A stretch of DNA of 59,543 bases, taken from assembly GCA_016927695.1 (NCBI GenBank), contig JAFGME010000193.1, positions 1-59,543 on the forward strand. Direction: 5' to 3'. The notes beneath the pieces are model-generated. The model worked only from the letters and a program-made list of their open reading frames with translations. It did not search any database and had not been told where the DNA came from. Shown here piece after piece: positions 9,295 to 45,386 of the stretch. Both the position numbers and the translations under genes were made by a program. Positions within the stretch are counted from its first letter, which is position 1, and every line of letters starts with the position of its first letter. The DNA comes from Bacteroidales bacterium (GTDB taxonomy: Bacteria > Bacteroidota > Bacteroidia > Bacteroidales > JAFGHD01).

Positions 9295-12042
9295 TCAGTT
9301 CAGAAGGTAGTTATAAACCTTATTTCCTTCGCAGATGATCAGGTTGATGTGGTCATCGTTGTTGAGGCTACCCGTAACAAAAGGCGTTTTACCTGATATA
9401 TAGGAAAGCGGTTCAAACATTCCCGATTTGTCAAAAAGAAGCACCTTTCCGCTTTCTTCCGATATGACCCCGATGATTTTACCTCTGCCGGGGATTTCAA
9501 ACAACCCGGCAAATTCAATCAGTTTTTCCGGAGAATAATAATCCAGAAGCAGGTTTTTTTGCCTGTCGAAAACGGCTATCCTTTGGTTATCGGTAAAAAT
9601 AAAGTCAAAGGCTTGATTGTTATCAAAATCGGAATAGAAAAAGCAATGCTCCGCAGAAAACACATCGAATTGGGTATCAGATACCGAACCCCCTGAAGTC
9701 AGGTAGCATAGTCTTCCCTGCCTGTCGGTGGTGATCAGAAAACCTTTGGAGTTGGTTTTATTGATGTAGAAGACTGAGTTGCTCGCCTTAACTAGCGCTT
9801 TCTCAGGTGAAAACCTTGTTTCTCCCCTGCGGTTATAGAAATAAACGCTGCCGGTCTCATCGGTGACAATAATATAATCTTTACCTTTATCAGTCAGGTA
9901 CTCAACAGGCATAACCACCTTATGGCTCACAATGGGTTTGCTCCAGCCCTCCACCTGCTTTCCGTCCATGTCGTAATTGTAAATCCTGTTATCCTCACCT
10001 GCCACCAGAATCCGGTAATCTTTCAGTTTATCGTAATCGGTCACTGATATCCCGTTGGTGGCTTTTGAAGCCAGTTTCACAGGAAAGTTGCCTACATAAT
10101 TTCCGTTGAGATCAATGAGGTACAAATAATCGGCAGTATTAAAGATGTATTGTATTTTTCTGTTTTTGAATGCATCCACCATGAAAACATCCCCGACAGG
10201 CTGTTGCATAAGGGGGATTTTCCATTTAATGCGGCCTTCATGATCGATGAGGTACATGGTGTTCATTTCATCAAAAACGATCACCTTAAGCCTGCCTGTG
10301 ATATGGTCGCGGATCAGGAAAGGCTTTCCTGAAACAGGTGCGTCAGTTACGGCCTCCCAGTTCGATGGGTTTACCTCACGGTATTCAGGGTTGTATTTTA
10401 TGTACACATTGGTGAAAAACATATTGTTTATGTAACTGAACTGCAATGCAATGCCCTCAAAATTCACCAGTGTGGACTGGTTTGTCCGGAGGATATCTGC
10501 CACTGAAGGCTGAAAACAGGAGGTGATCGCAGGGATGGATTTTCTGATGTTGCAATACAGCTGCAGGTTCGTCCTGTCGCTGATGTTATCCGAGAATGTC
10601 TCAAAATTATAATTGTCATCCAATGTTTTCTGCCCATAGAACGAGTTAATCTGGTGTACAAGATACTCAGGGTTGTTTGCCAGTACAAGATAATCCTTCA
10701 GAATGATGTAATAGTTTTCTGTAATCCCATGAAATACCGGACCGAAGAGGCATTCCATCAGATTGCCTTCGGGCAGTTTCTTTATGTTGTAATCATAATC
10801 TTTCAGGTCAGGGCTTTCCAGGGGGATATCTTTAAGGGAAAGATCTCCCAGTGTTATGAATGCCTTTTCAGCATCTTTCAGGCGGATGATCCCTGCAAGG
10901 TTTTCGCGGGTTTCATTGCCACTGGCAGAGGTGATGGCCAGAGCCACTTCGTCCCCGATCAGGGGGATGATCCTGTTCTCCAGGTCTGCTCCGTGAATTG
11001 ACGGGTATTCAGTGATGCTTCTGTTGTATTCGGCAAGTCCGCCTGCAACATTCAGGTATTGCCTGTATTCGTCAAGGTATCTTTCAATTTCGCCTGTCGA
11101 TAAAACGGTAAGGAATGTTGTGTTGTAAGGCAGTATGGAAGTTACCTCTCCCTGATGGGGTTCATGCCTGAAAACGTCCAGATAATTTGTGGTTGTGTCA
11201 CTTGTCGCTGTGTAGCCATTCAGGAGAATTTCATCATTTTTAATGATCAGGTCGAGTTCCGACCAGGAGGCGAAGTTCCCTGCATTTCCGGTTATATCAA
11301 GACAAAACGGGGAAAGTATCCCCGCCATGGAGGGATGTGCTGCACCGAAATGAAAATATATGTTCGCGTCCACATTTTTTCCTGCAGTGGCGCGCACTTT
11401 CAAAAATTCAGGGCGCTGAACCACAGGATTTCCCTTTTCAAGCCTGTCGATACAGCTTTGAATGCTGTTTTCGTTAAAACCGGCAATAAGAAGATTATTT
11501 ACCGTTGTATATTGAAATGGTTGGTCAAATGCCGGGATATTGACATAGCGGATCATGGCCTTTTTGTATTCACGGTTCAGAATGATGCTCCTTTCACCAT
11601 TCACCTGTTTCACAAACCGGTCGATCCCCGAAACATCTGTGTTTTGCGACAACTCCATGATAAACAGTACTTCATGCACTCCGTTTTCCCGTGAAATGGC
11701 AGCAGTAAGTTTTTGGTTTTTCAGCAATTCACCGGTGGTATTTTCTGACATCAGTGAATCGAGGGTGGCAACGATGCTGTTGAGCCCGCAGACTTCCTTT
11801 ATCCTGCAGAGTTCACCCCAGAGGGCGCTTCGCTCCGAAAGCTTCTCCCATGTCCCGCCGGGATTGCTGAATTCGATAAATACAATGGCATTCGGCGGCA
11901 CAGCATCAATCGCTTCGATCTGCGGCTTATGGAGGCTCCTCAGAAAATTCACAGCCAGATAAAAAACAACGGCAGTGATTATGACTGCGACAATATACCC
12001 TGCAAATCTCAGCATATTACCGACACTTTTTCCCTTTGCCAC
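9295..12042 (-). CDS. Membrane-anchored DUF3352-like protein with C-terminal propeller
   Basis: 915 residues, starting at a GTG (12042) with a -7 box just upstream; the next ATG is at codon 10. An N-terminal helix (about residues 12-32, FAGYIVAVIITAVVFYLAVNFL) anchors a large extracytoplasmic region. Residues 40-560 resemble DUF3352 (IDAVPPNAIVFIEFSNPGGTWEKL). Residues about 590-915 are repeated short strands of the form YLIDLNGN, IYNYDMDGK, VYFYNRRGE, which suggest a PQQ/WD-like propeller. No enzymatic motif is visible. The gene stands alone on its strand. Function unknown; a cell-envelope role is an inference from topology. Confidence 0.7.
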   Translation of the reverse strand: MAKGKSVGNMLRFAGYIVAVIITAVVFYLAVNFLRSLHKPQIEAIDAVPPNAIVFIEFSNPGGTWEKLSERSALWGELCRIKEVCGLNSIVATLDSLMSENTTGELLKNQKLTAAISRENGVHEVLFIMELSQNTDVSGIDRFVKQVNGERSIILNREYKKAMIRYVNIPAFDQPFQYTTVNNLLIAGFNENSIQSCIDRLEKGNPVVQRPEFLKVRATAGKNVDANIYFHFGAAHPSMAGILSPFCLDITGNAGNFASWSELDLIIKNDEILLNGYTATSDTTTNYLDVFRHEPHQGEVTSILPYNTTFLTVLSTGEIERYLDEYRQYLNVAGGLAEYNRSITEYPSIHGADLENRIIPLIGDEVALAITSASGNETRENLAGIIRLKDAEKAFITLGDLSLKDIPLESPDLKDYDYNIKKLPEGNLMECLFGPVFHGITENYYIILKDYLVLANNPEYLVHQINSFYGQKTLDDNYNFETFSDNISDRTNLQLYCNIRKSIPAITSCFQPSVADILRTNQSTLVNFEGIALQFSYINNMFFTNVYIKYNPEYREVNPSNWEAVTDAPVSGKPFLIRDHITGRLKVIVFDEMNTMYLIDHEGRIKWKIPLMQQPVGDVFMVDAFKNRKIQYIFNTADYLYLIDLNGNYVGNFPVKLASKATNGISVTDYDKLKDYRILVAGEDNRIYNYDMDGKQVEGWSKPIVSHKVVMPVEYLTDKGKDYIIVTDETGSVYFYNRRGETRFSPEKALVKASNSVFYINKTNSKGFLITTDRQGRLCYLTSGGSVSDTQFDVFSAEHCFFYSDFDNNQAFDFIFTDNQRIAVFDRQKNLLLDYYSPEKLIEFAGLFEIPGRGKIIGVISEESGKVLLFDKSGMFEPLSYISGKTPFVTGSLNNDDHINLIICEGNKVYNYLLN

Positions 12043-12260: not shown

Positions 12261-13037
12261 ATGAAAAGTGAGTTGAATTGTAACTATGAAACCCCGGATA
12301 TGCCTGTAACGAGATATTTTTTCGACATTTCTTTTGAGGGTACTGAGTATGCGGGTTGGAACAACAGCCGGAAAACTCCCACCGTGAAGGGAATGACAGA
12401 CAAGGCCCTTTCAGTGATTTTGCGCTGTCCGGTCAGAACCACCGGTTGCACCCAAACGGAAAAGGGGATACATGCCCGGCAGTTTTTCTTCCATGCGGGA
12501 ATTTCCTGCCTCCCCCCGGACCTCTTCATCCAAAGGCTTAACGGTTACCTTCCGGGTGACATTGCAGTGAACAGCATAACAAAAAACATTCCTTGCAATG
12601 CCCATGCCCGTGAAAGTAAAATCTCCGAAACCTGGGAGTGCCGTATCCATTTTCTAAAAGATCCCTTTCTGGATTTATTAAGCATATTTTGGCCTTATGG
12701 TGTGCCTGACCTGAAGATGATGCAGCTGGCGGCCGCTTTTATCCAAAGTAAGGAGATGGCATTCCCAGCAGGCGGGTCGCACGTCAATGCAGCAGCTCCG
12801 GAAATCCTGTTTTCACAGGATCAACACAGCCTGATCCTCCGTTTCACCGGCCAATATGCCTCTGCCGTATCCGTCAGAAAACTTGCATTTGCAATGCTAT
12901 GGGCAGGCAGCCGGAAAATTTCCCCGGAAGCATTGCCGTATGAAATGCGTAATATGGCCAATTCCGGCAGGGTGTTCTGCTTGCCTGCCAAAGGGTTGCA
13001 TCTTACCGGGGTCAGGTATCCTTTCGATATGGAATGA
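12261..13037 (+). CDS. TruA-like tRNA pseudouridine synthase paralogue lacking the catalytic Asp
   Basis: 258 residues from 12261; an ATG at 12300 (MPVTRYFFDISFEG) gives 245 residues and aligns better with the usual TruA N-terminus. The TruA fold is recognisable: RYFFDISFEGTEYAGW, TVKGMTDKALS, then GCTQTEKGIHARQFFFH, where TruA has GAGRTDAGVHA. The catalytic aspartate is Glu67 and the preceding Arg is Gln65, both confirmed in the nucleotides (CAA ACG GAA). The downstream region (LKDPFLDLLSIFWPYG, LRFTGQYASAVSVRKLAFAML) still follows the family. The frame is intact, so this is a retained protein rather than a decayed gene. It may bind RNA without modifying it, or have changed chemistry. A bona fide truA would have to lie elsewhere in the genome. 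Confidence 0.8.
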   Translation: MKSELNCNYETPDMPVTRYFFDISFEGTEYAGWNNSRKTPTVKGMTDKALSVILRCPVRTTGCTQTEKGIHARQFFFHAGISCLPPDLFIQRLNGYLPGDIAVNSITKNIPCNAHARESKISETWECRIHFLKDPFLDLLSIFWPYGVPDLKMMQLAAAFIQSKEMAFPAGGSHVNAAAPEILFSQDQHSLILRFTGQYASAVSVRKLAFAMLWAGSRKISPEALPYEMRNMANSGRVFCLPAKGLHLTGVRYPFDME

Positions 13038-13052
13038 ATTAACAATAAATTA

Positions 13053-13084
13053 ACGGAAACAAAAAATAATTGTTTTGTTTCCGT
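13053..13084. promoter_or_regulatory. 32-bp palindromic operator upstream of tetR
   Basis: ACGGAAACAAAA and TTTTGTTTCCGT are perfect 12-bp inverted arms around the spacer AATAATTG. The right arm contains the TTTG -33 element of the tetR promoter, so bound protein would block transcription. Length, symmetry and position fit an autoregulatory TetR-family operator controlling the efflux operon. Confidence 0.7.
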
Positions 13085-13104
13085 CAGGGCAAGTTATACC
13101 TTTG
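13074..13104 (+). promoter_or_regulatory. Promoter of the tetR-efflux operon
   Basis: TTTG at 13074-13077 and TACCTTTG at 13097-13104 are separated by 19 nt, a canonical Bacteroidota promoter (TTTG-N19-TAnnTTTG). The ATG at 13127 follows 22 nt after the box. Confidence 0.75.
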
Positions 13105-13126: not shown

Positions 13127-13747
13127 ATGAGGGAAGAAGACAAATTAAAGTATATCACCGAAGAATCCTTTGAGTTGTTTGTGAAGCATGGTGTGAAAAA
13201 GACCTCCATGGATATGGTAAGCAGGAATCTGGGCATATCCAAAAAGACACTTTACCGGCATGTAAAAAACAAAGAGGATCTCCTGAAAAAGGTTTTCGCT
13301 TATGTTGACGGACAGATCAGGACAAGGATACATGCACTTCTTGATCTCAAACTGAATGCCATTGACAACCTGATGAAAATGAGCCTGATAGCGACTGCCC
13401 GGCATCAGATCATCAATCCTGTGATATCTATCGAACTCAGGCAATATTATCCGGGGATTTATCAGGATTATCTTGTCAAAAAGAAAAAAGTCATCATTGA
13501 TTATATCATACAAAATCTTGAAAGGGGAATAAAAGAGGGTTATTACCGTCTTGATCTCAACAAAGACATTATTGCATATTTATATTTTCAAAAAATTGAA
13601 GATTTGCATTTTGCATCCGGCGAAAAGGAAGAATACTCTTTTGAGGATATTTTTTCTGTCATGTTCGACAGCCATATACGGGGAATAGCCAACAGCAGGG
13701 GCATAAAGTATTTTGAGCAGAATAAGGAAAAGTTAACGGTAAAATAA
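13127..13747 (+). CDS. TetR-family repressor of the efflux operon
   Basis: 206 residues from the ATG at 13127; the track start at 13070 lies upstream of the promoter. The N-terminal helix-turn-helix is clear: ITEESFELFVKHGVKKTSMDMVSRNLGISKKTLYRHVKNKEDLL. The C-terminal ligand domain is unspecific. It precedes tolC by 6 nt and sits behind a 32-bp palindrome that overlaps its own promoter, so autorepression and control of all five genes are likely. The inducer is unknown. Confidence 0.88.
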   Translation: MREEDKLKYITEESFELFVKHGVKKTSMDMVSRNLGISKKTLYRHVKNKEDLLKKVFAYVDGQIRTRIHALLDLKLNAIDNLMKMSLIATARHQIINPVISIELRQYYPGIYQDYLVKKKKVIIDYIIQNLERGIKEGYYRLDLNKDIIAYLYFQKIEDLHFASGEKEEYSFEDIFSVMFDSHIRGIANSRGIKYFEQNKEKLTVK

Positions 13748-13753
13748 GGGAAA

Positions 13754-15163
13754 ATGATCAGGACTTTAGCAATTTGTTTATTTACGGCAATTGGGGTTCA
13801 GTGGGCCGGTAACACAGCATCAGCACAGGAGGTTTTGAAGCTTTCATTGTCAGATGCCCAGGCTTATGCCCTGAACCATAATTATGATATCAAAAATGCC
13901 AGGATCGATGTTGAAATCTCCAGGAGGAAGGTTTCTGAAACCACGGCAATTGGTCTTCCACAGGTGAATGCCTCAGTCGCTTACAATAACTTTTTAAACA
14001 TTCCCACCCAGCTTATTCCCGATTTTCTCACTCCGGCCATTGCGGGGGTAAATGAGGGTTATTACGGTTTGACTCCGGAAGTGCCTTTGCCTGTTGGAGC
14101 ACAGTTTTTTGAAACCCAATTCGGGGTGCAGCATAATATGACGGCCGGCATCAGCGCTTCGCAGTTGATTTTCAGCGGACCATATATCGTCGGGCTTCAG
14201 TCCGCAAAGGCTTATGTTGGGTTGTCCCAAAGCAACCTGGTAAAAAGTGAAACCGATATAAGAACACAGGTGGCAAAAGCTTATTTCCCTATCCTGGTAT
14301 TAATTGAAAACCAAAAGACCATTGATTCCATACTGGTGAGCCTGCGAACCATGTTTAATGAGTCAAAGGAATACCTGGGGCAGGGATTTATTGAAGATAC
14401 AGAGGTCGATCAGCTTGAGCTTCTGGTCAGAGATGCAGAAACCCAGCTCGCCAATACAATCAGCCGGCTTGAGTTGTCCTTTAATTATCTGAAACTCATT
14501 TTGGGATTGCCTGCTTCAACGGTGATTGAAGCGACTGAAAACCTCGACAGCCTTGTCGGTTCCATCGGGCCCGACTATCTTTCAGACAATCCGTTCGACA
14601 TCCATAACAACATCGAATACCGTATAGTGAAAAACCAGCAGGAACTGGCATTCCTCAACATGAAAAGGTACCGGTCGGAGTATCTTCCCTCCCTGTCTGC
14701 TTTTTATGCTTTTGAGGAAACCGGGATGAGGGACAAATTCAACTTTTTAGACAAGGATGGGGATTGGTATCCCAACCAGGTGCTGGGAGTTCAGCTTGAT
14801 ATACCTATTCTGAGCGGCGGCAGCAGAAAGCATAATATCCAGCAGGCCCGGCTTACCCTGGAGAAGGTGCAAACCATGGATAAACAGGTACAGGAATCAT
14901 TAACCCTTGCGGAAAGGACTGCCCGGACTGAGTTTTCAAATGCATGGAAGGTGGCCATCAACAAGAAAAGCAATATGGAACTGGCCAAAAGGATTCATGG
15001 AAAAACAGAAATCAAATACAGGGAAGGCCTGGCATCCAGCCTCGACATGTCGCAAACCCACAACCAGTATATGCAGTCCGAGATGGAATATCTGCTGGCT
15101 GCGCTGGACCTGCTGAACAAAAAGGCCGATCTCGACAAGATACTAAGCAAAGTCACCGATTAA
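13754..15163 (+). CDS. TolC-family outer-membrane efflux protein
   Basis: 469 residues with a signal peptide ending ASAQ. The mature protein opens LKLSLSDAQAYALNHNYDIKNARIDVEIS, the TolC-family (OEP) helical signature, and repeats it in the second half (VKNQQELAFLNMKRYRSEYLPSLSAFYAF and a long heptad-rich helix). It forms the outer-membrane exit duct for the RND pump encoded three genes downstream. There is a 21-nt gap to the FKBP gene. Confidence 0.9.
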   Translation: MIRTLAICLFTAIGVQWAGNTASAQEVLKLSLSDAQAYALNHNYDIKNARIDVEISRRKVSETTAIGLPQVNASVAYNNFLNIPTQLIPDFLTPAIAGVNEGYYGLTPEVPLPVGAQFFETQFGVQHNMTAGISASQLIFSGPYIVGLQSAKAYVGLSQSNLVKSETDIRTQVAKAYFPILVLIENQKTIDSILVSLRTMFNESKEYLGQGFIEDTEVDQLELLVRDAETQLANTISRLELSFNYLKLILGLPASTVIEATENLDSLVGSIGPDYLSDNPFDIHNNIEYRIVKNQQELAFLNMKRYRSEYLPSLSAFYAFEETGMRDKFNFLDKDGDWYPNQVLGVQLDIPILSGGSRKHNIQQARLTLEKVQTMDKQVQESLTLAERTARTEFSNAWKVAINKKSNMELAKRIHGKTEIKYREGLASSLDMSQTHNQYMQSEMEYLLAALDLLNKKADLDKILSKVTD

Positions 15164-15184
15164 CACATCAAATATCAATATGCA

Positions 15185-15883
15185 ATGAAAATGATCACCT
15201 TATCAGTCATCCTTTTGTCATTGGCCGTTTCCTGTACCTCCGACACGGAAAAGTCGATAGAAAAGGCAAAAGTCATAAACAAGACAGATTCTGTGAGTTA
15301 TATCATTGGACTGGATTACGGGCAGGGTGTTAAAGAGCAGGATATTGAGATCAATCCGCTGATGGTTTACAAAGGATTTCAGGATGCCCTGAAAGGCAAA
15401 AGCCTTTTCAGCGATTCAATCCGTGAGTTAATCATAAATGATTTTAATGTTTTTCTCAAATCGCGTGAAGAGGAAAAAACGTTGAAAGAGGTGGAAAAGA
15501 ACATCTCCGATGGGGCCGCCTTCCTAAACGCAAACAGAAATGCACCGGGGGTGGTCGAACTTCCCGGAGGCTTACAATATAAAATTCTGAAAGAAGGCGC
15601 CGGGCGCAGGCCATCGGCTGATGACAGCGTCAGAATTCACTATCGTGCCATGTTCACCGACAGGGTCACTTTTGACATGTCGTACGACCGGGGCCCTGCG
15701 GGGATCAGACTTGGATCTGTGATCCCCGGACTTGCACAGGGCATCGTACTCATGAAAGAAGGGTCGATTTTTGAACTTTATATACCTCCGGAATTAGGAT
15801 ATGGAAATCAGAATTTTGCCAATATCATTCCCGGAGGCTCAACCCTTATTTATGCGGTTGAACTTTTTGAAATCATTGAATAA
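15185..15883 (+). CDS. FKBP-type peptidyl-prolyl isomerase lipoprotein
   Basis: 232 residues. Signal peptide II with lipobox LAVSC (Cys at about residue 17). Residues 30-115 resemble the FKBP_N dimerisation/chaperone domain (SVSYIIGLDYGQGVK...). Residues about 120-232 are the FKBP domain: LPGGLQYKILKEGAGRRPSADDSVRIHYRAMFTDRVTFDMSY, IPGLAQGIVLMKEGS, YIPPELGYG and PGGSTLIYAVELFEI. This is a periplasmic folding factor of the FkpA/Mip type. Its position between tolC and the fusion-protein gene is unusual and suggests a role in assembling the pump, or simple co-expression. Confidence 0.9.
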   Translation: MKMITLSVILLSLAVSCTSDTEKSIEKAKVINKTDSVSYIIGLDYGQGVKEQDIEINPLMVYKGFQDALKGKSLFSDSIRELIINDFNVFLKSREEEKTLKEVEKNISDGAAFLNANRNAPGVVELPGGLQYKILKEGAGRRPSADDSVRIHYRAMFTDRVTFDMSYDRGPAGIRLGSVIPGLAQGIVLMKEGSIFELYIPPELGYGNQNFANIIPGGSTLIYAVELFEIIE

Positions 15884-15912
15884 CCATCATTTTATCGTAA
15901 ATAAGTCAGCGA

Positions 15913-17043
15913 ATGAGAAAATTATTGTTATTAGCAACCATATTGGTTTTTGGGGCTTGTGGCAGCAGCCCTGAATCGCAGGATGAAATAAAGGATCAGA
16001 TTGCGAAATATAAAAAGGAAGTCATTGACCTGAATGCAAAAATTGCCGGGTTGGAGGAAAAGCTTGCCGTTGATTCTGCCGGCGCCGGATTTGCCGTTCC
16101 GGTTTATGTAGCAGCGCTTGAGCTCAGGGAATTCAATCACTATATTGAAGCAAACGGATCGGTGGAAGCGGTTAACATGGCTTTTATCAGCCCTGAAACC
16201 GGCGGCCAGATCGACAGGATATATGTCACTGAAGGGCAAATGGTAAACCAGGGTGATCAGCTCATTAAACTGAATGCGGCCATTGTTGAAAGCTCAATTG
16301 AGGAAGTGAAGACTTCCCTTGTTTTAGCCAAAACAGTTTATGAAAGGCAAAAATACCTGTGGGACAAAAAGATAGGCTCTGAAATTGAATACCTCACTGC
16401 CAAAAACAACATGGAAGCTCTTGAAAGCAGGCTGAATACATTGTATGCCCAGTCCGATATGGCGGCCATTAAATCACCCATTGACGGGATCGTGGATGAG
16501 ATATTCATGAAAGAGGGAGAACTGGCCCTGCCCGGAATGCAGGTCATGCAGATTGTAAGTCTTACCGATCTGTATGTCAATGCAGATGTGTCGGAGGCTT
16601 ACCTCGCCAATGTCAGCAAGGGTGATGCTGTATTGCTGGAGTTCCCTTCACTCCCCGGATTTTCAATGGAAGTGCCGGTGTTCAGGGTAGGCAATGTAAT
16701 CAAGGAAGCCAACCGTACTTTTACCCTTCAGTTGAAAATCAGAAACCAGAACGGTATGATCAAACCCAATTCATTGTCCGTGGTCAAGATCAATGATTTT
16801 TCATCCGACTCGGCGCTGGTGGTACCCTCTTTGGTCATCAAGCAGGACCTTAAAGGATCTTATGTTTATGTGGCAGCACGGCAAAGTGATAACTTCCGGG
16901 CCCAAAAAAAATACATCAGGACAGGGAAGTCTTATGGTGAGGAAACCATGGTGGTGGAAGGTCTGGACAGCGGCGATCAGGTGATTGTTAGCGGATACAA
17001 CCAGGTTTCGGACGGGGCACCGGTGGCAATTAAAAATCAGTGA
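15913..17043 (+). CDS. RND efflux membrane fusion (periplasmic adaptor) lipoprotein
   Basis: 376 residues. Lipobox VFGAC, then a short coiled coil (residues 25-55, KYKKEVIDLNAKIAGLEEKL). The adaptor core follows: FNHYIEANGSVEAVNMAFISPETGGQIDRIYVTEGQMVNQGDQLIKL is the first lipoyl half-motif, a helical hairpin follows, and IKSPIDGIVDEIFMKEGELALPGMQVMQIVSL is the second half. It bridges the inner-membrane pump and the TolC-like duct. It lies 27 nt upstream of the RND gene. Confidence 0.92.
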   Translation: MRKLLLLATILVFGACGSSPESQDEIKDQIAKYKKEVIDLNAKIAGLEEKLAVDSAGAGFAVPVYVAALELREFNHYIEANGSVEAVNMAFISPETGGQIDRIYVTEGQMVNQGDQLIKLNAAIVESSIEEVKTSLVLAKTVYERQKYLWDKKIGSEIEYLTAKNNMEALESRLNTLYAQSDMAAIKSPIDGIVDEIFMKEGELALPGMQVMQIVSLTDLYVNADVSEAYLANVSKGDAVLLEFPSLPGFSMEVPVFRVGNVIKEANRTFTLQLKIRNQNGMIKPNSLSVVKINDFSSDSALVVPSLVIKQDLKGSYVYVAARQSDNFRAQKKYIRTGKSYGEETMVVEGLDSGDQVIVSGYNQVSDGAPVAIKNQ

Positions 17044-17070
17044 TGACTGGCGCTTAAATATTGATTTGTA

Positions 17071-20000
17071 ATGGAAAACCGCAAAGACGAAAACATCAAG
17101 AGGGAATTTGGCCTGACCACTTTGTCACTGAACAACAAAAACACCATTTTTTTGCTGTTGGTGGTGCTGGTGGGTTTTGGAATTTACAGCTACAGGTCGT
17201 TGCCCAAAGAGCTTTTCCCCGATATTTACATTCCTACCGTCATGGTGCAGACCCTGTATTACGGGAATCCGCCCATTGATATTGAAAACCTGATTACCAG
17301 GCCCATCGAAAAGGAGTTGGAGTCGATCCGCGGGATTAAAAAGATTACTTCCAATTCACTTCAAGATGCTTCTGTGATTTTTGTGGAATTCAACACCGAT
17401 GTCGATATCAACCAGGCGCTTCAGGAGGTGAGAGACGCCACCGACAAAGCCAAAAGAGAACTCCCGAACGATCTTCTCGAAGATCCGTTGATCACTGACA
17501 TTGACTTTTCCGAGTTTCCCATCATATTCATCAACCTTTCAGGGGAATACAGTATCAATGAGCTGAAGGCATACGCCGAATACCTTGAGGACGAAATAGA
17601 GAGCATCTACGAGATTTCAAAAGTGGACATCTCTGGTTTGAATGAAAGGGAAGTGCAGGTGAATGTCGACCTCCATAAAATGGAAACCTATGAGCTGAAT
17701 TTCGATGATATTGAGAATGCCATTGCCGGTGAAAATATTTCCATGTCGGGAGGAGAGATAAGGTTAGGCGAGACACGCAGGTCGCTCAGGGTCATCGGTG
17801 AATTCAAAAATGTGAGGGAAATAGCCGGTATTATTGTTAAAAATGAGGATCAGGACATTGTGTATCTGAAAGATGTTGCAGATGTGATTTATGGCTTTGA
17901 AGATCCGTCAAGCTATGCCCGTTTAAACAGGCAACCGGTAGTTACCCTGCAGGTTGTGAAAAAGGGCGGGGAGAATCTGCTCAATGCCACCGATAAAATT
18001 TTCAATGTCCTGGATGAGGCAAAGGCAACCCGCGCCATACCGGAGAATCTGAAAATAACCATTACCAACGATCAATCGGATATAATACGGAAACAGCTCA
18101 AAGAACTTGAAAACAGTATATTCATGGGGGTGATTTTTGTGCTGCTCATACTCTATTTTTTTCTTGGCATAAGAAATGCGCTTTTTGTCGGCCTCGCCAT
18201 CCCCACCTCAATGTTCCTTTCCTTTATGGTGCTTGGGCTGATGGGATCAAGAGTGAATATGATCGTTCTGTATTCCCTTATTCTTGCGCTGGGAATGCTC
18301 GTTGACAACGCCATTGTAGTTGTCGAGAACATTTACCGCTTTGTCGACAGGGGTTACAGTAAGTTCGAGGCGGCTAAGAACGCTGTTGGGGAAATCGCAT
18401 GGCCCATCATCACCTCCACGGCAACCACTTTGGCTGCATTTTTTCCATTGCTTTTCTGGGACAGCCTCATGGGAGAGTTCATGTGGTTCCTGCCCATGAC
18501 CCTTATCATTGTGTTAACCTCATCCCTGTTTGTGGCATTGGTTATTATTCCGGTGGTCTCTTCCACCTTTATCAAGTACGGCGATCAGAACCCAAAACCC
18601 AAACTGAAACGTTCCGTTGCCATTGCCGTTATTTTTATTACCACTGCATTAATTTTTTATGCAGCAGGTGTAAATGCTCTGGCAACCCTTTTGATGATCT
18701 TTGCCATTATCGGCATCTGCAACCTGCTTTTTTTGCAACGTTTTGCAGCATGGTTTCAGAACCGTTTTCTTCCATGGCTCGAAAACACATACCTCAATAC
18801 CCTGACCTTCGTTTTAAGAAAAAGAAACCCCAATTACTTCATTGGCGGCACTTTTGTTCTTCTTATCATAACAGTAATGTTTTATTTTTCGCGACAGCCT
18901 GAAGTGGAGCTGTTTCCTTCAACAGATCCTCAGTACATCAATGTTCTTGCTGAACTTCCAATAGGAACTGATATTGATAAAACAGACCTCCTGGTAAAAG
19001 ATATTGAGGAAAGAATATATGAAATTCTGGAACCCTCTGCTCATATTGTTAAGTCGGTACAGACCATTGTGGGTGCCGGCGCCATAAGCGAAAATGAAGG
19101 TTTCAGCGGCAAATCCGGAGGCCCGAACAGGGGCTTGGTCACCATTCATTTTGTTGACTATGAGTTCAGGGATGGGATCAATACAGGCCACCTGATGAAG
19201 CAGATCGCCGACTCACTGATAAACCGGTATCCCGGTGTTTTGATGTCGGTTGAAAAACAAAGCGAGGGTCCTCCCACCGGCAAACCGGTCAACATTGAAG
19301 TCAGCGGCAAGGATTTCGATAAGCTTCTTACCATCACTGACGATATGCAGGATTATATTGAGAATTCGGGCATCCGGGGGATGGAAGGGCTCAAAATTGA
19401 CCTGGATGTGGGAAAACCGGAGATCATTGTGCATATCGACAGGGAAAAGGCCCGCAGGTTCGGGCTCTCTACTTATTCTATTGCCATGACCATCAGGACG
19501 GCTATTTTTGGGAAAGAGGTGTCCGATTTTAAAGTGGGCGAAGATGAATACCCGATACAGCTCAGGCTGAAAGAAGAATACAGGTATAACGTCGCTGCCA
19601 TTATGAATCAGAAAATCACTTTCAGGAGTCAAACCAGCGGAAGGATCATACAGGTGCCTATATCTGCTGTTGCCGATATTGAATATGGTACCACTTACGG
19701 CTCGGTGCTCAGGAAAGACCTCAGCCGCGTGGTCACCCTATATAGTAATGTTCTGGAAGGATATAATGCTACGGAAATCAACAATCAGATCAGGGAAATA
19801 TTACAGGATTTTCAAATGCCCGAGGGGTATAATTATGAATTCACAGGTGAGCAGCAGGAACAGGCTGAATCCATGGAATTCCTGTCACGTGCCATGCTTA
19901 TCGCCGTGGCGATTATCATTATTATCCTTGTCAGTCAGTTCAATTCCATTGTAAAGCCGGCCATTATTATCTTCACCATTTTACTGAGCACCATCGGGGT

Positions 20001-20511
20001 TTTTGGCGGTTTGGGAACTTTTAAAATGGATTTTATTGTGATCATGACAGGGATTGGGATTGTTTCATTAGCCGGGGTGGTGGTAAACAACGGGATAGTC
20101 CTGATCGATTATATCAACCTGCTGAAAAAAAGAAAAAAGAAAGAGATCGGTATCCCGGAAGATGGCTTTCTTTCGGTTAAAGATTCGACAGATTGCATAA
20201 TCGAAGGCGGTAAAACAAGGCTCAGGCCGGTATTGCTGACCGCCATTACAACCATCCTTGGGCTGCTTCCGCTCGCTTCCGGATTAAATATTGATATTGG
20301 AGGTATGCTTACGGATCTAAAACCCAACATCTATTTCGGAGGGGACAATGTGAAATACTGGGGGCCAATGTCATGGACTGTCATCTTTGGACTTTCTTTT
20401 TCCACATTCCTCACCCTGCTTATTGTTCCGGCTATGTACCATGTGTTGTACCTGGCCAAGGTAAGACTTTATGCACTGAAGGATAAATATTTCGGTCAGC
20501 CGGATGAATGA
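17071..20511 (+). CDS. RND-family inner-membrane efflux transporter (AcrB/HAE-like)
   Basis: 1146 residues with the RND layout: TM1 at the N-terminus (NTIFLLLVVLVGFGIYSYRSLPKELFPDI), a large periplasmic loop, TM2-6 with LVDNAIVVVENIYRFVDRGYSK, a second loop and TM8-12 with VVVNNGIVLIDYINLLKK. In TM4 the AcrB Asp-Asp pair is Asp-Asn, and in TM10 the AcrB Lys position is not Lys, so the proton relay differs from AcrB; this variation is common in Bacteroidota RND proteins. The substrate (drug, bile-salt-like compound or other) is not readable. It is the last gene of the TetR operon. Confidence 0.92.
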   Translation: MENRKDENIKREFGLTTLSLNNKNTIFLLLVVLVGFGIYSYRSLPKELFPDIYIPTVMVQTLYYGNPPIDIENLITRPIEKELESIRGIKKITSNSLQDASVIFVEFNTDVDINQALQEVRDATDKAKRELPNDLLEDPLITDIDFSEFPIIFINLSGEYSINELKAYAEYLEDEIESIYEISKVDISGLNEREVQVNVDLHKMETYELNFDDIENAIAGENISMSGGEIRLGETRRSLRVIGEFKNVREIAGIIVKNEDQDIVYLKDVADVIYGFEDPSSYARLNRQPVVTLQVVKKGGENLLNATDKIFNVLDEAKATRAIPENLKITITNDQSDIIRKQLKELENSIFMGVIFVLLILYFFLGIRNALFVGLAIPTSMFLSFMVLGLMGSRVNMIVLYSLILALGMLVDNAIVVVENIYRFVDRGYSKFEAAKNAVGEIAWPIITSTATTLAAFFPLLFWDSLMGEFMWFLPMTLIIVLTSSLFVALVIIPVVSSTFIKYGDQNPKPKLKRSVAIAVIFITTALIFYAAGVNALATLLMIFAIIGICNLLFLQRFAAWFQNRFLPWLENTYLNTLTFVLRKRNPNYFIGGTFVLLIITVMFYFSRQPEVELFPSTDPQYINVLAELPIGTDIDKTDLLVKDIEERIYEILEPSAHIVKSVQTIVGAGAISENEGFSGKSGGPNRGLVTIHFVDYEFRDGINTGHLMKQIADSLINRYPGVLMSVEKQSEGPPTGKPVNIEVSGKDFDKLLTITDDMQDYIENSGIRGMEGLKIDLDVGKPEIIVHIDREKARRFGLSTYSIAMTIRTAIFGKEVSDFKVGEDEYPIQLRLKEEYRYNVAAIMNQKITFRSQTSGRIIQVPISAVADIEYGTTYGSVLRKDLSRVVTLYSNVLEGYNATEINNQIREILQDFQMPEGYNYEFTGEQQEQAESMEFLSRAMLIAVAIIIIILVSQFNSIVKPAIIIFTILLSTIGVFGGLGTFKMDFIVIMTGIGIVSLAGVVVNNGIVLIDYINLLKKRKKKEIGIPEDGFLSVKDSTDCIIEGGKTRLRPVLLTAITTILGLLPLASGLNIDIGGMLTDLKPNIYFGGDNVKYWGPMSWTVIFGLSFSTFLTLLIVPAMYHVLYLAKVRLYALKDKYFGQPDE

Positions 20512-41832: not shown

Positions 41833-41926
41833 CAGAGAGAACGGTACTGGTGTGCCAGCCGGTCTTCAAAACCGGTAGCAGACGGATAAAACCGGCTGTG
41901 GCAGGTTCGATTCCTGCTCTCTCTGC
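41833..41926 (+). tRNA. selC: tRNA-Sec (anticodon UCA)
   Basis: CAGAGAGA pairs with TCTCTCTG (8 bp acceptor stem). A D arm GGTAC-TGGT-GTGCC, an anticodon arm CCGGT-CTTCAAA-ACCGG with anticodon TCA (loop identical to E. coli selC), a long variable arm (CAGACGG...CCGGCTG) and a T arm GCAGG-TTCGATT-CCTGC follow, giving the 8+5 acceptor/T stack of bacterial tRNA-Sec. CCA is not encoded. With the 8-bp stem the discriminator is C; with a 7-bp stem starting at 41834 it is G, as SerRS normally prefers, so the exact 5' end is uncertain. It lies 34 nt before selA. Confidence 0.93.
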
Positions 41927-41959: not shown

Positions 41960-43393
41960 ATGAGTGCAAAACAGGAGGTTCTTAAAAACCTTCCCGCTGT
42001 TGATAAACTTCTGCAATCGTCTGAGGTTGGGAGGCTTGTTGCGAGGCATGGCAAAGATGCGATACTCTTTTGCATTCGCCAGGCATTAGTCTTTTTCAGA
42101 AACCATATTCAATCAGGGCATCCCCCTCCTTCATCCGGTGATATTTTCCGGGAAATTGACCGGCTGGCAGGCATCTTTTTTGAAAGAAGTTTAAGAAAGG
42201 TTTTCAACGCCACAGGCATCATAATCCATACCAATCTTGGGCGTTCCCCTTTCTCCGGTGACTTTCTGAACGATAACTTTAAGGTTCTTAACGGTTATAA
42301 TAATCTTGAGTTCGATCTCAAAAAGGGTTCAAGGGGAAGCCGGAACGACCATGCCTCTGAAATACTGAAATACCTTACCGGGGCTGAGGATGTCCTTGTC
42401 GTGAATAATGATGCTGCAGCCGTAATGCTTGTTCTCAGCGCCTTTGCAAAGAAAAAAGAGGTAGTGGTTTCAAGGGGGGAACTGATTGAGATCGGCGGTT
42501 CATTCAGGTTGCCTGAAATTATGAAGGCCTCCGGCTGCAAAATGGTGGAAGTCGGCACCACCAATAAAACAAAACCCGATGACTTCAGAAATGCCATCGC
42601 CCCTAAAACGGCTTTGTTATTTAAAGCCCACAAATCAAATTATTTCATAAAAGGCTTCACCCAGGAAGTGGATATCAACCAACTGTCGAAATTGGGAAAA
42701 GAGTTTGGTATACCTGTGCTTTTTGATCTGGGGTCGGGCCTTTTACGAAAAAACCTTCATCCCCTATTTGCTGGTGAACCCACTGTTTCTGAAGCCGTCA
42801 GCAATGGGGTTGACCTCGTTTGCTTCAGCGGCGACAAGCTGATGGGCGGTCCTCAGGCAGGTATCATTGCAGGGAAAAAGGAGCTGATCATGAAACTGAA
42901 AAAGGAACCTGTGCTGAGGGCGCTGAGGGTATGTAAAACCACTCTTGCGCTGCTTGAAACCACATGCTCCTATTATCTTGATGAAAAGAAACTCAAAGAA
43001 AGGAATCATATTTACAGGATCATCCACCGAAAACCGGACGACATCAAACAGGCAGCCACATTGCTGAAAGACCGCCTGATAAGCCATAATGTTAACGCAA
43101 GAGTGGAACCGGGCAAAGGCTGCTTTGGCGGCGGCGCCCTGCCCGACAGTGAAATAGACAGCTTTGCCGTGGGCATTGTCAACGACAAACCAAATAAAAT
43201 CCGTTCAGCCTATGCTGAAAGGATGTACCGCGCCCTGATGCTACACAACCCACCGGTATTGAGCATCCTGAAAAAAGGCAATCTTTGCTTTGATGTGTTA
43301 ACCCTGTTTGATGAGGATATGGATGAAATGGCCGGGATCATAACTGAAACACACCGGATGATTATTGGACAAATGAATCTGCAACCTGAGTAA
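41960..43393 (+). CDS. selA: L-seryl-tRNA(Sec) selenium transferase
   Basis: 477 residues, normal for bacterial SelA. The N-terminal domain (LKNLPAVDKLLQSSEVGRLVARHG) binds tRNA-Sec. The PLP fold carries NATGIIIHTNLGRSPFS, EFDLKKGSRGSRNDHASEILKYLTGAEDVLVVNNDAAAVML and the PLP-lysine motif CFSGDKLMGGPQAGIIAG. It converts Ser-tRNA(Sec) to Sec-tRNA(Sec) using selenophosphate. It is the first protein gene after tRNA-Sec and is followed by selB after 10 nt. Confidence 0.97.
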   Translation: MSAKQEVLKNLPAVDKLLQSSEVGRLVARHGKDAILFCIRQALVFFRNHIQSGHPPPSSGDIFREIDRLAGIFFERSLRKVFNATGIIIHTNLGRSPFSGDFLNDNFKVLNGYNNLEFDLKKGSRGSRNDHASEILKYLTGAEDVLVVNNDAAAVMLVLSAFAKKKEVVVSRGELIEIGGSFRLPEIMKASGCKMVEVGTTNKTKPDDFRNAIAPKTALLFKAHKSNYFIKGFTQEVDINQLSKLGKEFGIPVLFDLGSGLLRKNLHPLFAGEPTVSEAVSNGVDLVCFSGDKLMGGPQAGIIAGKKELIMKLKKEPVLRALRVCKTTLALLETTCSYYLDEKKLKERNHIYRIIHRKPDDIKQAATLLKDRLISHNVNARVEPGKGCFGGGALPDSEIDSFAVGIVNDKPNKIRSAYAERMYRALMLHNPPVLSILKKGNLCFDVLTLFDEDMDEMAGIITETHRMIIGQMNLQPE

Positions 43394-43403
43394 TTCTGAT
43401 TTT

Positions 43404-45386
43404 ATGAAACACCTGATCATTGGAACGGCAGGTCATATTGACCACGGGAAAACCGCCCTGATAAAAGCGCTTACAAGCATTGACTGCGACACCCACAAGG
43501 AGGAGAAACTGCGGGGGATCACCATTAACCTTGGATTTGCCCACCTCAACCTGCCCGGTGGCCAATCCATCGGTATCATTGACGTTCCGGGGCACAGTGA
43601 TTTTATCAATACCATGGTGGGAGGCACCTGTGGAATTGATATGGTTTTACTTGTCATTGCTGCTGACAGCGGCATCATGCCTCAAACTGCCGAACATGTG
43701 AATATCATCACCGCATTGGGAATCAGTAACGGTGTGGTTGCCCTCGCGAAAACCGACCTTGTCGACGAAGAACTCATTGAAATGGCCCGGTATGAAATAT
43801 CTGATTTCCTTGATAAAACATCTCTGAAAAATGCACCCATTGTACCTGTTTCATGTGTGACGGGTCAGGGTATTGATGAATTGATTAATGCCATTGAGCA
43901 AATGGTTTCCGGAATTCAGGAGCCTGAGAAGGGCAATTTATTCAGGATGTATATTGACCGGATATTCACTGTTAAAGGGTTCGGAAGCGTTGTAACCGGA
44001 TCGGTCCTGGGTGGAAGTATCGAAACGGGAAAAGATGTGTTTCTGCTGCCGGGTTCCAATCAGAAACTGAGGGTGCGCTCCATCGAAAGGCATGGAAACA
44101 GCGTGGATAAAGTGGTGGCCGGCGACAGGGCTGCACTCAATCTGATCGGCCTGAAAAATGAAGATTATGAGAGAGGAATGTTGATTTCGGATAAACTTCT
44201 TCCGGATACACGAATGATTGACGTGTATGTTGCTTTGTTTGACAATGCTTCGCCGCTCTCCCTCTGGTCAAATGTGACTTTTATTTCCGGCACATTTGAA
44301 TCTCAGGCCCGCCTGCACCTTCTGAACAAGGATGAAGTCATGCCCGGTGAAAACGCAGTGGCTCAGATACATCTCTACCGGCCTGCCATTCTTATGAACA
44401 GGGATAAGTTCATTATACGAAACTCATCAGCCGATTTAACCCTTGGAGGGGGATATATCATTGATGCCTCTCCGCTTCACCATAAAAGAAGAACACCCAG
44501 GCTCATCGATTATCTTAACCGCTTGTCGGTTTCTTTGTTGAGCGATAACAGTGTGAGCGAGATCATCAGTGTGGAATTAAAAAAGGAGTTCAGGCCTTTC
44601 AGCCTGGCCGAAATGGCCGAAAAGCTGAATATGAGTGTAACTGAACTGAAAACAGAGCTGGAAAGTGGCAAAGTTGATTTTACCATCTATCTGGCAGGTG
44701 ATACTGCAATTGTCATTGACCCGGTCTGCGATAAAACATACAGGGATAAAATTATTGACATTCTTAAAGAACATCATGCCAGAAATTCTATTTTCCCCGG
44801 TGGGCTGGAGCTTAATGAAATCATAAGTAAATCAGGCATGATAAAAATGAAGCAGGGGAAAATTTACCTCGAAATTCTGTTAAAGGAGCTCAAAAGTGAA
44901 AATGCGGTCGAAAATTTCAAAAACACATGGATTATAAAAGGCCATAAGCCATTGATTGACAAACAAATGATGGAAGAGATCAACTGGCTCGAAAACACCA
45001 TTTTGAAATATGACAATGAAAAACCCGCCCTCTCCGAAATTGAAGAAAAGGCTTCTCAAACAAGAATTTCACCCCCAAAAATAAAAATATACCTGAATTA
45101 CCTGGCCGATGAAGGTAAAATCCGGTTTTATCAGAGTGAGTTTATTCATACCAAAATACTTGATAAATACAGAATTCTGTTATTGCAGGAACTTCAGAAA
45201 AGCGTCGAAGGCATAGACATACAGGAGTTTAAGGATTTGATGGGAGGCACAAAACGTTTCCGGGCTTTGTTAGGGGATATTTTTGAATCTGAAAAATGTA
45301 TTGCCATCCGGCGTGGAAGTGGTGTGGAAACCAGATTTTTTATTACAGAAAACGGAAAAAAAATACTTCATGAAAGTTTATCTTGA
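43404..45386 (+). CDS. selB: Selenocysteine-specific elongation factor
   Basis: 660 residues. EF-Tu-like GTPase: G1 GTAGHIDHGKT, switch I KLRGITINLGF, G3 DVPGHSDF, G4 AKTD (Ala where TKxD or NKxD is usual) and G5-region VSCVTGQG. Domains 2-3 (about 175-345) are followed by winged-helix domains to the C-terminus that bind the SECIS hairpin. It delivers Sec-tRNA(Sec) to UGA in the formate dehydrogenase mRNA encoded 8 kb away. It overlaps the next gene by 17 nt. Confidence 0.96.
   Translation: MKHLIIGTAGHIDHGKTALIKALTSIDCDTHKEEKLRGITINLGFAHLNLPGGQSIGIIDVPGHSDFINTMVGGTCGIDMVLLVIAADSGIMPQTAEHVNIITALGISNGVVALAKTDLVDEELIEMARYEISDFLDKTSLKNAPIVPVSCVTGQGIDELINAIEQMVSGIQEPEKGNLFRMYIDRIFTVKGFGSVVTGSVLGGSIETGKDVFLLPGSNQKLRVRSIERHGNSVDKVVAGDRAALNLIGLKNEDYERGMLISDKLLPDTRMIDVYVALFDNASPLSLWSNVTFISGTFESQARLHLLNKDEVMPGENAVAQIHLYRPAILMNRDKFIIRNSSADLTLGGGYIIDASPLHHKRRTPRLIDYLNRLSVSLLSDNSVSEIISVELKKEFRPFSLAEMAEKLNMSVTELKTELESGKVDFTIYLAGDTAIVIDPVCDKTYRDKIIDILKEHHARNSIFPGGLELNEIISKSGMIKMKQGKIYLEILLKELKSENAVENFKNTWIIKGHKPLIDKQMMEEINWLENTILKYDNEKPALSEIEEKASQTRISPPKIKIYLNYLADEGKIRFYQSEFIHTKILDKYRILLLQELQKSVEGIDIQEFKDLMGGTKRFRALLGDIFESEKCIAIRRGSGVETRFFITENGKKILHESLS

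Follow-up and report, generated by a model that had tools for sequence, protein, structure and literature searches.

The window, that is, the whole stretch of 59,543 nucleotides analysed here (contig C263 of the source assembly), carries at positions 12261-13037 on the forward strand an intact gene for a TruA paralogue whose catalytic aspartate is replaced by a glutamate. The best fit, to which we assign a probability of roughly 0.62, is a pseudoenzyme of the TruA family, retained because it binds RNA or pairs with TruA. This agrees with one of the two possibilities raised in the first-pass annotation, a catalytically dead RNA-binding protein, while the other, an enzyme with new chemistry, has no positive evidence behind it since the paralogue has also lost the Arg of motif II, the active-site Tyr and the motif III FLxxM.

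Reading frame of the paralogue

The ORF at 12261-13037 (+) encodes 258 aa and includes RTTGCTQTEKGIHARQFFFH. Homology to TruA begins at MPVTRYFF, about residue 14-17 of this longer ORF, and the structural model described below has a pLDDT below 50 over residues 1-14. Given that both homology and model confidence begin at about this point, the start is probably not ATG 12261 but ATG 12300, so that the most likely CDS is 12300..13037 (+), encoding 245 aa. The product is basic, with a pI of 8.65 (homologue median 8.8). The source assembly comprises 4.36 Mb in 317 contigs and is incomplete, with an estimated contamination of 5.8%; its gene content and the named relative L002 point to the phylum Bacteroidota.

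Residues of the active site

In motif II (12444..12476, +) the paralogue displays GCTQTEKGIHA in place of the G[AC]GRTD[AT]GVHA seen in the homologue columns. Gapless alignment to E. coli TruA sets Glu67 (codon GAA, 12459-12461, +) at the catalytic D60 and Gln65 (codon CAA, 12453-12455, +) at R58, which bears out the two replacements read in the first-pass annotation. However, the altered positions extend beyond these two adjacent residues and reach most of the conserved active site. Indeed, Trp125 stands at the active-site Tyr (E. coli Y118) and Cys127 at the next conserved Tyr (12633..12641, +), and motif III (12855..12878, +) reads YASAVSVR in place of RFLRNMVR; from FLxxMVR, the V and the last Arg alone are retained in the corresponding ASAVSVR. 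Hence the catalytic Asp, the motif II Arg and the active-site Tyr are all absent from the paralogue.

Among 140 reference homologues, the Asp column holds D in 99%, the remainder being a gapped fragment; every one of them with a readable motif has D, and the one other Glu is that of L050, a protein discussed below. In the same set the R58 column is R in 99%, both Tyr columns are Y in 99% and the F of motif III is found in 100%. At columns conserved in at least 90% the changes include D67E, R65Q, Y125W, Y127C, F200A, L201S and M204S. The paralogue keeps 26 of the 41 columns at this threshold and loses 15, mostly in or beside the active site, whereas at variable columns its agreement with the consensus is limited to 24 of 113 (for the comparison with 26/41, Fisher p 1.8e-6). 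Arg206, which ends motif III, is retained, as are HAR, LPxDI and GLxL. Because the conserved columns are kept selectively and the losses lie mostly at the active site, the alignment indicates conservation of the fold without that of the chemistry.

TruA, TruB, RluA and RsuA all lose their activity when the conserved Asp is mutated, according to PMC3919597, where RluA is also described as inactivated by Arg-to-Met or Lys at the R58 equivalent. Likewise, P. putida TruA with Asp70-to-Ala is inactive according to PMC7822408, in which inactive E. coli TruA is said to have been reported to retain substrate binding.

Homology to TruA and predicted fold

The paralogue is a genuine TruA homologue, as it matches PF01416, TruA sequences in the PDB and, through its model, TruA structures. 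Its score against PF01416 is 25.1 bits, above the cut-off of 23.3, which places it in the PF01416/TruA superfamily. It falls outside the TruA enzymes as defined by the TIGR00071 equivalog, with 43.4 bits against a cut-off of 142.85, compared to 150.9 for the genome's own normal TruA and 159.1 for that of G001, a sister species. With phmmer, the paralogue matches the TruA of 2nqp at an E value of 4e-10, and both E. coli and Thermus TruA were matched by sequence in the PDB.

An AlphaFold model built from a six-sequence alignment (mean pLDDT 73, pTM 0.69, and thus of moderate confidence only) displays TM scores of 0.78-0.80 to E. coli TruA, including the tRNA-bound 2nqp and 2nre; the motif II loop (67-71) is among its least confident parts. 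The top Foldseek matches of this model are all TruA (E 2.6e-18, TM 0.78 to 2nqp). Compared to TruA, the tRNA pseudouridine(38-40) synthase of TIGR00071/PF01416, the paralogue has the same fold, length and motif order, keeps most of the conserved residues outside the active site and has its best structural matches in 2nqp/2nre, but it differs by Glu at the catalytic Asp, Gln at R58, Trp at Y118 and the loss of the motif III FLxxM. The paralogue thus represents an uncommon variant within a known family.

A normal truA in the same genome

The presence of a normal truA elsewhere, as anticipated in the first-pass annotation, was confirmed. Contig C151 of the same genome (G000:C151) bears a separate RTD truA upstream of rex (L001, motif GCGRTDAGVGAMK), and G001 likewise has an RTD truA upstream of rex (L047). 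The tetranucleotide distance between the C151 stretch and the window is 0.113, compared to 0.22-0.49 between either of them and the stretches from other genomes; moreover, neighbours of the paralogue in the window have orthologues in G001 (DUF3352, 43%; TetR, 48%). Given this close make-up and these neighbour orthologues, it is most likely that a single organism carries the two truA genes. The whole-genome PF01416 search listed the C151 copy alone, and the window copy came up in the protein search. The genome's normal TruA (L001:1045-1803) itself exhibits RTDAGVGA, with a Gly for the GVHA His that is present in 98% of homologues; the normal TruA of G001 keeps that His.

A second glutamate-bearing homologue

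Across 393 genomes of the order, 395 genomes of the class and 4 further contig loci, the nearest matches read are RTD enzymes of 28-38% identity, and no orthologue above 38% identity was found in the 393 genomes of the order. Close homologues with RTD, which in the first-pass annotation would have pointed to a sequencing error, did not come up in these searches: the nearest are ordinary TruAs at the identities given, and one other protein also has the Glu. This sole other Glu-bearing TruA, 32% identical to the paralogue, is found in G214, a genome of the same order (L050, identical to L191; motif GCCRTEAGAHAPLFFLH), which also carries a normal truA elsewhere (L109). The L050 contig fits the G214 genome by tetranucleotide make-up (0.152). 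When 393 genomes of the order and 396 of the phylum were searched with a degenerate DNA pattern for GxxxTExGxHA, the TruA matches were the window and G214 alone, all other matches being unrelated proteins. No Glu-bearing second truA was found in G116, a genus mate of G214.

The window and G214 proteins have 13 rare residues in common, compared to a mean of 2.75 (sd 1.8, maximum 9) between the window protein and the others. Among these features, E67, K207 and R237 are found in none of the 140 others, R237 being also present in L036, a shortened ORF of the sister species. Furthermore, a one-residue insertion before HAR gives both proteins a DI..HAR spacer of 13 residues, seen in these two alone among 110 readable sequences, 106 of which have 12. 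A second common insertion, before DLKMM, is unique in the alignment but is not counted, as raw spacer lengths did not confirm it. Given the rare residues and the unique insertion, a sequencing error is unlikely and the two proteins likely descend from a common, already altered ancestor, on which the trees are equivocal. In contrast to the paralogue, the G214 protein keeps R58 and Y118, has Leu where motif III ends in Arg (R206) and lies in a different gene neighbourhood. Hence, of the E and Q whose conservation the first-pass annotation had proposed to look for, the G214 protein has the E alone, with Arg at the position of Q.

Trees and other second copies

The branch of the paralogue is about five times as long as usual, with 2.0-2.6 changes per column where the median is 0.4-0.45. 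In a quick tree the window protein, L036 and L050 were grouped (SH-aLRT 92), but this grouping was lost in a careful tree from which the motif columns and L036 were left out and in which the window and G214 proteins stand apart. Given the long branches and this disappearance, the quick-tree grouping is not relied on. A tree holding the window protein and L050 together was not rejected and had a slightly better score (AU p 0.54). A recent duplication of the genome's own truA was not resolvable, grouping of the paralogue with its own and the sister truA being likewise not rejected (AU p 0.67).

Many genomes of the order have a second truA, and those read retain RTD. A well-supported, separate clade of second TruAs from 13 genomes, which also have a normal truA, is characterised by RTD[AS]-x-VHA (L020, L073, L075, L077, L078, L095, L101, L103, L107, L108, L114, L117 and L119); in this clade the Gly after RTDA becomes E, K, M, Q, L or R. 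These Bacteroidota proteins resemble the paralogue in coming from genomes with a normal truA and in having FFH-type residues after the motif, but both the Asp and the Arg of the catalytic motif are present in them.

In the sister species G001, L036:5287-5700 (G001:C70) is a second TruA-like ORF shortened in frame, without its middle including motif II; R237 and H247 are common to it and to the window protein. The shortening may be a real deletion or an assembly fault. A canonical-type RTD truA at L043:1319-1765 (G048:C416) also exhibits an in-frame absence of the protein middle, possibly through an assembly fault, and this calls for caution about L036. A phage or plasmid origin of the paralogue was rejected: no relative was found in viral contigs, and the phage and plasmid matches are distant TruA-like proteins, with 23-29% identity among those listed.

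Selection and alternative explanations

In neutral simulations taking a normal truA to 32% identity, stops appeared in 300 of 300 runs, with a mean of 7.4. As substitutions alone were simulated and indels left out, the test is conservative, and it demonstrates protection of the frame during most of the divergence. A persistence of this protection beyond the loss of the active site is suggested by a single feature, the Glu common to G214. Meanwhile, codon usage of the paralogue exceeds a uniform synonymous control by 4 sd but has a weaker bias than that of most window genes, and its second-position GC is the highest among the genes compared, which together represent a mild sign of relaxed constraint. 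The relaxed selection that the first-pass annotation would have counted against its proposal is therefore seen in part, namely in the long branch, in a codon bias weaker than in most neighbours and in the shortened truA of G001.

These signs are also what the main rival explanation would predict, a decaying duplicate under weak or no selection, devoid of function and still intact by chance of timing, which we regard as possible but doubtful. The very long branch, a codon adaptation that is low and a second-position GC that is high by the standards of the window, the internally deleted in-frame copy of the sister species, the absence of a copy from G116 and the lack of any closer orthologue in the order all speak for it, and the divergence could have built up while the gene was still active. 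However, the frame has come intact through far more change than would be possible under neutral decay, the fold residues are selectively retained, and the E together with other unique features is common to a relative as distant as G214. That an acid is kept in both Glu-bearing proteins, though many residues would be possible, and that the remaining fold is kept would instead suit an active enzyme whose Glu takes over from Asp, acting on U in tRNA or another RNA, or performs an altered chemistry. Such an enzyme appears improbable: D to E is the easiest step, since it takes a single third-base change, R58 is now Gln, Y118 is now Trp and FLxxM is gone, the G214 protein has lost the motif III Arg, and RluA is inactivated by Met or Lys in place of the R58-equivalent Arg (PMC3919597). 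Equally slim is the chance of a small, old lineage of Bacteroidota TruA paralogues in which the Glu would be functional, in a new RNA reaction or a modified pseudouridylation.

Given that D-retaining TruA paralogues are common in the order, including the 13-member RTDA-x-VHA clade, the gene might also be an ordinary duplicate with a changed target that still makes pseudouridine, but those paralogues keep RTD whereas the window protein is without RTD, the Tyr and FLxxM, and this explanation is very improbable. Least credible is an artefact of sequencing, assembly or binning, for which the incomplete, fragmented assembly and its estimated contamination would leave room. Against it, the amino-acid changes are many and concerted with no stop or frameshift, the composition of the contig is like that of the normal-truA contig, the neighbours have sister-species orthologues, and a second genome, G214, also has the E.

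Proposed role of the paralogue

Under the pseudoenzyme reading, a truA copy beside a normal truA has lost its catalytic Asp, now Glu, together with most of the residues flipping and holding the target uridine, while its TruA fold and the majority of its conserved residues elsewhere remain, as judged from sequence and model. The protein would be unable to form pseudouridine but would still bind structured RNA, probably tRNA, in the TruA cleft. It could then act in a non-catalytic manner, as an RNA chaperone or competitor. Alternatively, it may form a mixed dimer with the normal TruA, since known structures show TruA as a homodimer.

A pseudouridine synthase fold with a catalysis-free role, as proposed here, is known from TruB, which is a tRNA chaperone independently of catalysis (PMC12503941), though TruB is of a different family and is also an active enzyme. 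Furthermore, among the nearest folds to the model is Trypanosoma brucei mt-SAF11 (6sga/9hny chain FB), deposited as 'tRNA pseudouridine synthase A-like protein', which has a TruA-like fold in mitoribosome assembly; mt-SAF11 is eukaryotic, 579 aa long and very distant from the paralogue. In bacteria, the catalysis-free RNA-binding roles of such folds rest so far on TruB and TrmA, and a natural Asp-less TruA homologue, retained beside a normal TruA and apparently having an old relative, would offer a ready test of them. No description of a bacterial TruA pseudoenzyme was found in the literature searched, which lay mostly outside subscription journals. Its rarity and the absence of a functional clue restrict the weight of this find.

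Genomic neighbourhood

The divergent upstream neighbour of the paralogue is a gene for a DUF3352 protein (9295..12042, -), whose G001 orthologue has no adjoining truA. On the other side, a TetR-family regulator (13127..13747, +) is the first gene of an efflux cluster that continues with TolC/FKBP/MFP/RND genes (13754-20511). Between the paralogue and tetR, a 14-bp inverted repeat (13051..13086, unstranded) is probably a TetR operator (or a terminator), which suggests that the efflux operon does not simply include the paralogue. Nothing indicates that the paralogue and the TetR/efflux cluster are functionally linked, neither DUF3352 nor TetR nor efflux genes adjoin truA in G001 or in the other truA loci read, and the locus gave no defence-system match. 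From this layout, the paralogue would represent its own transcription unit between two unrelated neighbours. Further along, the window holds a selenocysteine locus with a tRNA-Sec (41834-41926) and a SelB-like elongation factor (43404-45386), and the ORF lying between them (41960-43393) could be SelA.
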